Shown piece after piece: positions 9,893 to 11,472 of a DNA stretch of 13,104 bases. Location of the stretch: assembly GCA_021798635.1 (NCBI GenBank), contig JAJZGH010000130.1, positions 1 through 13,104 of the forward strand, read 5' to 3'. The notes under the pieces were generated by a model that worked only from the letters and a program-made list of their open reading frames with translations, did no database searches and had not been told where the DNA came from. The first letter of the stretch is position 1. Every line of letters starts with the position of its first letter. This stretch comes from Planctomycetota bacterium. GTDB taxonomy: Bacteria; Planctomycetota; Phycisphaerae; WQYP01. The translations under genes and the position numbers were made by a program.

Positions 9893-10540
9893 TTATCGCG
9901 GCAGCGGAATAACGGCACCGGGCCGCGTTCGGCGGCCATTGATCGCAAGCAAATCAACCTCTCTGATGCGCCAGTTCCCCGGCCGCGGGTGATCCTGCCA
10001 GACAAAGCGCCAGGCGGTAATCACCGGCCCGTAATCGCGGGTGCTGGTCCAGATGACCAAGTGCGTAACGGCCTGCGACGCCTGCATGTGCACGGTCATG
10101 GATCGAATGATATTGCCGGTAATATGGACTGCTTTCAGTCGATTTGCCAAGCCGGATTGAATTTGGGCATAGTTCCACTGGCCAAAGATGGCCCGGCGCG
10201 AAAAATAGCGCATCACCGCCGGTACATCATCATGTGCTGCGGCGCTGATGATCGCATCATTGGCATTCACCAGTCGTTCCTGCGGAGTTACCACCAGTGT
10301 CGCTGTGAGAATCCAAATCATAGTGACGGCTAAGATCACGCCCCCGATATTTCGCACCAGGGCCTGCCGGGTATTTATTCCGCGCCAGATTGCCGCGATG
10401 GCAAGCAGCAGCATCGCCGCCCAGATGGCCCAATGATTTTCAAAAATGATGGCACCCGTTGATCGGGGAAAACCGGTGCTCAGGCGAATATAGCCAAGGG
10501 AACGGATCACACCATGCGGATGAATAATTGAAGTAAACAC
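9893..10540 (-). CDS. Small membrane protein with possible NTF2/SnoaL-like domain, GTG start
   Basis: 215 residues, not recognised as a named family. I start at GTG 10540-10538 (MFTSIIHPHGVIRSLGYIRL) because GGAG lies 6 nt upstream. The longer frame reaching 10786 runs through a transposon-like element and is rejected as the start. Two hydrophobic helices (about 36-53 and 64-84) are followed by a soluble segment of about 120 residues. That segment opens with TPQERLVNANDAIISAAAHDDVPAVMRYFS, a helix pattern reminiscent of NTF2-like domains that begin with an alpha-helical 'repeated small-load' region. It continues with mixed strands (VTHLVIWTSTRDYGPVITAWRFVWQ, NWRIREVDLLAING). Conserved catalytic residues cannot be identified. 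It is transcribed away from the flavin reductase and converges on the aldo/keto reductase. The domain guess is inference from pattern only. Confidence 0.72.
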   Translation of the reverse strand: MFTSIIHPHGVIRSLGYIRLSTGFPRSTGAIIFENHWAIWAAMLLLAIAAIWRGINTRQALVRNIGGVILAVTMIWILTATLVVTPQERLVNANDAIISAAAHDDVPAVMRYFSRRAIFGQWNYAQIQSGLANRLKAVHITGNIIRSMTVHMQASQAVTHLVIWTSTRDYGPVITAWRFVWQDHPRPGNWRIREVDLLAINGRRTRPGAVIPLPR

Positions 10541-10546
10541 ATTGTA

Positions 10547-10550
10547 CTCC
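10547..10550 (-). promoter_or_regulatory. Ribosome binding site deciding the membrane protein start
   Basis: Minus-strand GGAG, 6 nt before GTG 10540. It places translation start downstream of the MITE-like element. Confidence 0.6.
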
Positions 10551-10631
10551 GTGGCAATCAGGTTTTGCCAGCTTTTGCTGAAGCATTGTATGGCCAAGAC
10601 CGTCGGCGGGGCAACGCAGTTGCCGTCCGGC

Positions 10632-10639
10632 TCGAATAG
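10632..10639 (+). repeat. Left target-site duplication TCGAATAG
   Basis: 8-bp sequence directly abutting the left end of the inverted-repeat element. An identical copy abuts the right end at 10769-10776. A matching pair immediately outside both ends is the footprint of transpositional insertion. Confidence 0.8.
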
Positions 10640-10768
10640 GGGCGTGGCAATTTTTCCGGGCGGGGTGAAAAAAGCCGCCTTTGCACAGGAATTCTGAAGC
10701 CCGCCGGGATAAACCCGACGGCTCGCCGGTCGAATTGATGCGGGGTGCCCGGAAAAATTGCCACGCCC
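10640..10768. mobile_element. 129-bp MITE-like element with 22-bp perfect terminal inverted repeats
   Basis: The left end, 10640-10661 (beginning GGGCGTGGCA), is the exact reverse complement of the right end, 10747-10768 (ending TGCCACGCCC), over 22 bases. The element is flanked by the 8-bp direct repeat TCGAATAG on both sides. The 85-bp interior has no coding capacity worth noting. It contains an internal hairpin (10701-10721: CCG, mismatch, CGGG, ATAAA loop, CCCG, mismatch, CGG). Short length, perfect TIRs and a target duplication define a non-autonomous element mobilised in trans. An 8-bp duplication and ends starting GG would fit several families (for example ISL3, IS256 or IS1595 type), and I cannot choose among them. 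No second copy or transposase lies in this window. Confidence 0.82.
10701..10721. repeat. Internal hairpin of the MITE-like element
   Basis: CCG (10701-10703) and CGGG (10705-10708) pair with CCCG (10714-10717) and CGG (10719-10721) across one mismatch, loop ATAAA. With the 22-bp terminal stem the whole element could fold as a long stem with an inner hairpin arm. Confidence 0.6.
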
Positions 10769-10776
10769 TCGAATAG
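10769..10776 (+). repeat. Right target-site duplication TCGAATAG
   Basis: Identical to 10632-10639 and directly adjacent to the right inverted repeat. Confidence 0.8.
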
Positions 10777-10789
10777 TGCGATCCAACTG

Positions 10790-10818
10790 ACTAAGATACT
10801 GCGGTAGATTATCTTAGT
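10790..10818. promoter_or_regulatory. 9-bp dyad upstream of the flavin reductase
   Basis: ACTAAGATA (10790-10798) and TATCTTAGT (10810-10818) are exact inverted repeats around an 11-bp centre. The dyad ends 24 bp before the GTG start of the flavin reductase, so it would overlap the promoter or the 5' leader. It could be an operator or an mRNA hairpin just ahead of the ribosome binding site (GGAG 10829-10832). Confidence 0.5.
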
Positions 10819-10842
10819 AGAAGAATACGGAGTTTTAGAACA

Positions 10843-11472
10843 GTGGAATTTAATATTACTCAAATAGATTATTCTTTTTCATATAAACTCATGACCAACC
10901 TGATCGTGCCTCGGCCTATTGCGTGGATTACCAGCCTGGACGCCGCCGGAGTCCTTAACGCCGCACCGTTCAGTTTTTTTAATATGCTCGGGGCTGAACC
11001 GCCGATTCTTGCCGTCGGAATCGGTCGGAGACCTGGCACCGATACTCCGAAGGATTCGGCTTTGAACATCCGGAGCAGCGGTGAATTTGTTGTGAATCTG
11101 GTTACCGAAGAAATGGTGGAGTTGATGAACGCCAGTTCCGTGGATTTCCCCCATGGCAGCAGTGAAGTGGAATTGCTTGCTCTGGACTGCACACCGGGGC
11201 GGCAGGTGAAGGTGCCACATCTCGCGGCGTGTCCGGCAAGTTTTGAATGCCGCCTCGTGCAATATAACCAGATCGGAGAAAATCTTGTTTTCATCGGCCA
11301 AATTGTCCATTTACGGGTTGCCGATGAGATATATGATGCCGACAAGAACCATATTCGTTCCGATGCGTTTCACCCGGTGGGGCGCATGGGTGCACCGGCA
11401 ACGTATGTCCGCGCCCGTGATCGGTTCAACATGCCCCGGCTGAATTATCAGCAGTGGCTGGAGAGGCACTAA
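10843..11472 (+). CDS. Flavin reductase-like (FMN-binding split barrel) protein, GTG start
   Basis: 209-residue protein of the flavin reductase / DIM6-NTAB type, expected to bind FMN as a dimer; the substrate is not known. The start is GTG 10843 with GGAG 10 nt upstream. Family features are PRPIAWITSLDAAGVLNAAP (residues 23-42), FSFFNMLGAEPPILAVGIG (43-61), KDSALNIRSSGEFVVNLV (70-87), and the later FECRLVQYNQIGENLVFIGQIVHL strand pair. The C-terminus HPVGRMGAPATYVRARDRFNMPR is typical of the longer subfamily that resembles uncharacterised flavin-binding proteins. Length is normal. It is divergent from the small membrane protein, across a MITE-bearing gap, and its stop codon overlaps the stop of the convergent gene. 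Confidence 0.92.
   Translation: MEFNITQIDYSFSYKLMTNLIVPRPIAWITSLDAAGVLNAAPFSFFNMLGAEPPILAVGIGRRPGTDTPKDSALNIRSSGEFVVNLVTEEMVELMNASSVDFPHGSSEVELLALDCTPGRQVKVPHLAACPASFECRLVQYNQIGENLVFIGQIVHLRVADEIYDADKNHIRSDAFHPVGRMGAPATYVRARDRFNMPRLNYQQWLERH

Follow-up and report, generated by a model that had tools for sequence, protein, structure and literature searches.

The window, the whole 13,104-nt stretch of planctomycete DNA considered here, carries a 129-bp element without coding capacity of its own (10640..10768) in the gap between two divergently oriented genes. The element is a MITE, as seen from its inverted repeats, the duplication at its edges, and its copies elsewhere. The gap, called divergent in an earlier note on this DNA, spans the GTG start of the left gene (10540, minus strand) to the GTG of the right gene (10843, plus strand). 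The left neighbor (9893..10540, minus strand) encodes a protein of 215 aa with hydrophobic stretches recognizable by eye; its GTG start, with GGAG 6 nt upstream, was also placed by eye. No Pfam match was obtained for 9896-10537, and the NCBIfam match was weak and far under the cut-off. The right neighbor (10843..11472, plus strand) encodes a flavin reductase-like domain protein (Pfam match to PF01613). Upstream of this gene lies a dyad (CTAAGATA-N11-TATCTTAG, 10791-10817) that is largely kept in four congeners and possibly represents the site of a regulator.

The ends of the MITE (end sequence GGGCGTGGCAAT) are terminal inverted repeats of 22 bp, the left one at 10640..10661 on the plus strand (GGGCGTGGCAATTTTTCCGGGC) and the right one at 10747..10768 on the minus strand. 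The arms, noted before as perfect, are complementary at 22/22 positions, 85 nt apart, and the sole inverted repeat of ≥12 nt reported within 10500-10900. The 8-bp target site duplication is exact, as had been claimed, with TCGAATAG at both edges (10632..10639 and 10769..10776). By our own estimate, the probability that 22-bp perfect arms at this spacing and an exact 8-bp edge repeat arose together by chance is far below 1e-6, and chance is not a serious option. The 145 nt comprising the MITE and both duplications fold strongly on the two strands (z = −6.0 and −5.8); a search of the window against Rfam at gathering scores was negative.

Such a fold would also be expected of an ancestral hairpin, attenuator, or terminator that never inserted, but this reading does not account for the duplication at both edges or for dispersed copies, and it is contradicted by empty sites; we consider it next to impossible. 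The element is absent from the orthologous gap in all four aligned congeners (G003, G005, G007, and G008). In three of them (G005, G007, and G008), the gap has one CTCGAATAtGGCG in place of CTCGAATAG and TCGAATAGTGCG of the window, a single CTCGAATAt in which 7/8 of the duplicated bases (TCGAATA) are kept; the gap of G003 is empty as well but has diverged at the site. Six congener loci (L191-L196) contained neither a MITE end with ≤5 mismatches nor an exact TCGAATAG. G004 and G006 gave matches to both flanks of the gap, and G002 gave no match to the neighboring gene.

The nearest genome compared, G001, has 79% of the sampled 31-mers of the window in common with it and carries a copy at the same locus (L001) that is identical over 129 bp. 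The window's copy is 94.6% identical (5.4% diverged) to the consensus of the 24 other copies in G001, which on average show 97.0% identity to their own consensus. Judged from the common position in G001 and the 5.4% divergence from the consensus, the insertion is older than the divergence of G001 and the window's strain. It had been described as recent, and this applies in comparison with other species of the genus but not with G001.

Copies, cores, and spread of the family

A search for further copies, suggested earlier, returned at least 88 matches to the MITE in G001: at least 25 near full length, at least 2 truncated, and the remainder short matches to arm or core. These counts are lower bounds, with 40 of 111 first-look candidates scored. 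By simple comparison, 13 of the 25 near-full-length copies have an exact 8- or 9-bp duplication. Among relatives, matches at E ≤ 1e-8 occur in at least 5 of 61 genomes, G001 included, with at most 14 candidates scored per genome. A degenerate form of the MITE end (≤1 mismatch) is present in 23 of the 28 genomes of the order, in none of which the reversed control pattern was found, and in at least 89 stretches of named Phycisphaerales/Planctomycetota MAGs. The MITE consensus of G001 is nearer to that of other genera (G023, 88%, 2 copies; g8, 85%, 4 copies) than to that of G004 from the same genus (75%, 3 copies), and horizontal spread or the existence of several old lineages are possible explanations.

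The collected loci contain 96 distinct paired elements, with listed lengths of 118-198 bp, which fall into six core groups and one singleton. The ends are common to these groups, and no similarity between their cores is detectable. Across all cores, we distinguished 135 independent insertions, with an exact duplication of 8 bp in 56, of 9 bp in 8, and no exact duplication in 71; no target-site consensus was seen among 16 eight-base duplications.

One subfamily, of 128 bp, has a REP-like hairpin in its core (element positions 60-87), which in the window lies at 10699..10726 on the minus strand (GCGAGCCGTCGGGTTTATCCCGGCGGGC). Near-identical units flank a gene of the Y1/RAYT type on both sides on contig C132 of G001, the arrangement typical of REP/RAYT systems. 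This gene matches NF047646 (REP_Tyr_transpos) with an E value of 1.1e-7 and 31.8 bits, under the cut-off of 80. It stands amid REP/BIME-like arrays (L029, 1381-2700). The 15-nt hairpin of the subfamily has 28 exact matches in G001, of which we assigned, by coordinates, 26 to MITE copies and 2 to the RAYT-type gene; at the window's own locus, one base differs. By position, 11 exact matches to the REP pattern in G001 lie outside the MITE copies and the RAYT locus, and looser variants are found at further sites in G001 as well as in other genomes of the order, but the MITE's own variant is almost confined to MITEs. In G015, six fetched MITE copies (L198-L202 and L207) are 211 or 241 bp long and contain extra palindromic DNA (GTCGCC/GGCGAC units) within the REP hairpin; at least one of these long copies, L198, has an 8-bp duplication (GCAACGGT).

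Insertion sequences with the same ends

A full-length insertion sequence with the same ends, which the earlier note had proposed to look for, was found in G025, another genus of the family. The element (L171) has 1,566 bp and perfect 22-bp ends (GGGCGTGGCAATTTTTTCGGGC) with one mismatch to those of the MITE, an 8-bp duplication (TTTTTGAA), and an open frame of 410 aa, or 399 aa counted from the first start codon. The ends and the duplication thus lie within the ranges given for the ISKra4 group (18-39 bp inverted repeats and 8-9-bp duplications). The best family of the transposase is the ISKra4 model NF033572, with 146 bits below the NCBIfam cut-off of 205 and model positions 60-422 only matched, so that the enzyme may be incomplete; the match to PF06782 (34.9 bits) is above the cut-off of 24.3. 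Homologues of this transposase number at least 1597 at E ≤ 1e-10, with 7996 candidates scored, and the enzyme is therefore widespread. Furthermore, an insertion sequence end in G018 (L176) has its first 27 nt in common with the MITE, and three further ends (L170, L174, and L179) have 0-1 mismatches to the MITE 22-mer.

Matches to the ISKra4 model were obtained in 20 of the 28 genomes of the order, none of them above the curated cut-off. In G001, no insertion sequence with MITE ends was found, and its single ISKra4-model match has other ends. An L171-type transposase may nevertheless be the enzyme that moves the window's MITE, and the 1,566-bp ISKra4-type insertion sequence of the related genus is a likely source for it.

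A scan of genome contigs yielded 10 pairs of ends 0.7-4.1 kb apart as candidates for further full-length insertion sequences. The frames of 8 of them were checked by eye and no transposase was recognized; these pairs resemble unconnected MITE ends with ordinary genes between them. The isolated ends of three loci (L040, L046, and L027) were also considered as ends of insertion sequences, and again no transposase was recognized by eye.

Distance to promoter-like sequences

The left gene of the window is preceded by a promoter-like sequence on the minus strand. The promoter scan gave a −35-like hexamer TTGCCC (10609..10614) and a −10-like hexamer TACAAT (10585..10590) separated by a spacer of 18, which in our reading leads to the GTG at 10540 with its upstream GGAG. 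Between the −35-like hexamer and the inverted repeat of the MITE are 25 nt. Hexamers and spacing are identical in the four element-free relatives, and the promoter-like sequence is therefore older than the element. In G001, the same insertion is 39 nt (by counting) from the −35 hexamer, because 14 bp are duplicated between promoter and element; this tandem duplication (L190) is absent from the window and from the aligned relatives. On the right flank, the best score at the expected distance is 6/12, and no promoter was seen there. The earlier suggestion that the element could alter the expression of both neighbors can thus be narrowed: on the left, the conserved promoter-like sequence begins 25 nt from the MITE, which lies on its upstream side and leaves it intact, as is usual in the family. 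An effect of the MITE on the expression of a neighbor may follow from this position.

All promoters considered here are sigma70-like consensus matches in which the 12 hexamer bases were scored. Among 251 distinct flanks read outward from the ends, TTGACA-like hexamers are most frequent 25-27 nt from the end and TATAAT-like hexamers at 46-50. After removal of related flanks, 244 independent ones were left, and 35 of these score ≥9/12 with the −35 hexamer starting at offsets 24-28, compared to a mean of 0.97 and a maximum of 4 in 200 sets of shuffles. Promoters pointing in the opposite direction reach at most 3 at any offset. In a hold-out of 78 flanks that are unrelated in sequence to the earlier ones but come partly from the same genomes, 12 have a promoter at the expected offset; equal windows at other places give 0-3, and 500 shuffled sets give 0.37 on average and at most 3. 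Counted by insertion, 73 of the 135 have a promoter of ≥8/12 on at least one side with the −35 hexamer about 26 nt outside the inverted repeat (six equal windows elsewhere, 4-12); this comprises 21 of 44 REP-core insertions and 52 of 91 others, with 0-5 and 3-8, respectively, in equal windows elsewhere. Judged by these consensus matches, insertions of the MITE family keep a fixed distance to sigma70-like promoters.

Flanks in G001 with a promoter make up 15 of the 37 that face a gene start and 0 of the 12 that face a gene end (Fisher p 0.006). With the exception of the 25th copy, whose flank is too short on one side, the near-full-length copies in G001 could be classified, and of these 24, 13 lie between divergent genes, 10 between tandem genes, and 1 between convergent genes. 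For comparison, 1200 intergenic positions drawn at random from 20 stretches of G001 were classified by equally crude gene calls, and 26% were in divergent, 61% in tandem, and 12% in convergent gaps (enrichment in divergent gaps, p 0.003). This enrichment is obtainable by selection alone, if an ordinary MITE inserted anywhere in noncoding DNA and its copies survived in promoter-rich gaps, and such a view would also accommodate the 62 of 135 insertions without a promoter at the expected place at the ≥8/12 threshold. However, selection on gaps predicts broad distances, and what is seen is a peak at offset 26 that has a width of 3-5 nt, is accompanied by the −10 hexamer at 49, is repeated in the hold-out, and has no counterpart for promoters on the opposite strand. 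We regard insertion without a preference for promoters as improbable.

The fixed spacing, the strong fold on both strands, and the perfect arms kept in the window and in G001 could also be taken for signs of a regulatory function, with the element serving as a bound site, an RNA hairpin, or an insulator that is kept at promoters for its usefulness. Against this stand cores so unrelated that the ends alone are common to the family, the absence of the element from the gap of the aligned congeners, and the orientation of the copies; there is one copy at this site. Orientation by the core is possible only in the REP-core subfamily, and there either side faces the promoter (the left alone in 11 insertions, the right alone in 9, and both in 1). 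Maintenance for a regulatory function therefore appears to us more improbable still than undirected insertion.

The spacing was also examined at insertion sequences. Among the insertion sequence ends examined, 3 of 8 score ≥8 at the expected place and 5 of 8 do not. Of six ISKra4-type insertion sequences of this order with unrelated ends, L168 (10/12 at 26) and L182 (9/12 at 27) have a promoter on one side each, and L066, L067, L167, and L183 have no clear promoter at 24-28; the distance of about 26 nt may hold more widely for the ISKra4 group in this order. For calibration, four ISKra4 copies of cyanobacterial plasmids (ISCasp2, ISCasp3, and two more) were analyzed. One is without a usable inverted repeat, and the other three showed no promoter of ≥8/12 at 13-17 or 24-28, only scattered ones at other offsets.

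A model of promoter-directed insertion

Promoter targeting by transposases of the Mutator-like type has been described before. According to Guerillot et al. (PMC3942029), sites upstream of sigmaA promoters are used for insertion by TnGBS/ISLre2 (p-MULT 3) and by members of the ISKra4 group (p-MULT 4), which have prokaryotic Mutator-like transposases. For the ISKra4 group, 8-9-bp duplications, near-symmetric ends of 18-39 bp, promoters on either side, and a distance of 13-17 from the IR-genome junctions to the −35 box are given (PMC3942029). The MITE resembles this group in the type of its ends, the size of the duplication, and the insertion upstream of promoters, and the candidate source transposase best matches the ISKra4 model and PF06782. 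Unlike the group, it is a gene-less element of 129 bp. Insertion upstream of promoters at a fixed distance is thus common to both, but the exact published distance was not reproduced: from the inverted repeat to the −35 hexamer we count about 26 nt (17-19 from the duplication) versus 13-17, and the excerpted text of PMC3942029 does not state whether the duplication was counted. ISCasp2 and ISCasp3, named as promoter targeting in PMC3942029, had a promoter neither at the published nor at the MITE distance in their plasmid copies in our calibration.

TnGBS and ISLre2 insert 15-17 bp upstream of −35 boxes with an 8-bp duplication (PMC3942029, PMC4701971). Measured from the duplication, the 17-19 nt of the MITE are close to this value; measured from the inverted repeat, the distance is about one helical turn more. 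TnGBS/ISLre2 are mostly oriented with the right end toward the promoter, whereas the REP-core subfamily uses either end (11 and 9). Bacterial MITEs such as RUP, NEMIS, Nezha, ERIC, and others are listed in PMC3733652 and, like the element described here, have 70-300 bp, inverted ends, and no coding capacity and are moved in trans; unlike for the present family, no fixed promoter distance is mentioned for them in the excerpted text. As in REP/RAYT systems (PMC3733652), copies of the core hairpin neighbor a Y1 transposase gene of the RAYT type in G001, but here the REP-like unit is within a DDE-type MITE and its tag is GCGAG, not GTAG. In the excerpted open-licence literature on ISKra4, MITEs, REP, and TnGBS/ISLre2 (including PMC9208149, PMC4701971, and PMC9956884), we found no description of a promoter-targeting MITE. 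MITEs, ISKra4-type ends, and promoter targeting are each known kinds; promoter targeting by gene-less miniatures would be the new part.

The element is very probably a nonautonomous MITE with ISKra4-type ends that is moved in trans by an ISKra4/UPF0236 transposase to a zone just upstream of sigma70-like promoters. In our model, a prokaryotic Mutator-like DDE transposase (ISKra4/UPF0236) acting in trans would make the 8-bp duplication on the upstream side of the −35 hexamer at a distance of about 17-19 nt, which places the edge of the inverted repeat about 26 nt away and the duplication site at approximately −61 to −54 relative to the transcription start. We infer that the transposase might sense promoter-bound RNA polymerase or the shape of its DNA and that the cut might be made at the upstream edge of the polymerase footprint. 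In this model, the transposase would contact RNA polymerase, and the predicted promoters would be active. At the locus in the window, the MITE would have inserted into the promoter region of the left gene, with the −35 and −10 hexamers kept and the sequence further upstream moved 137 bp away.

Insertion sequences and ICEs are the elements for which promoter targeting by transposases of the Mutator-like type has been reported; with the planctomycete family, it extends to miniature elements. There are many independent insertions of gene-less elements near promoters, and therefore, the ends alone seem to be enough as a substrate; promoter finding by a transposase thus becomes testable on a substrate of 129 bp. 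For lineages without a transcriptome, the family is a promoter pointer, in that for about half of the insertions, a −35 box is predicted by an end of the element at a distance of about 26 nt. Old insertions of this family may thus mark gene switches in bacteria never brought into culture.

A wider scenario is more speculative, and we consider it rather unlikely as a whole. A promoter-reading system may have shed a gene-less swarm with unrelated cores that kept the promoter-seeking behavior but inserts farther upstream than TnGBS by about one helical turn; the RAYT-type REP in one subfamily would make the element movable by two unrelated enzymes, and the old insertions would amount to a natural map of the sigma70 promoters of uncultured planctomycetes.
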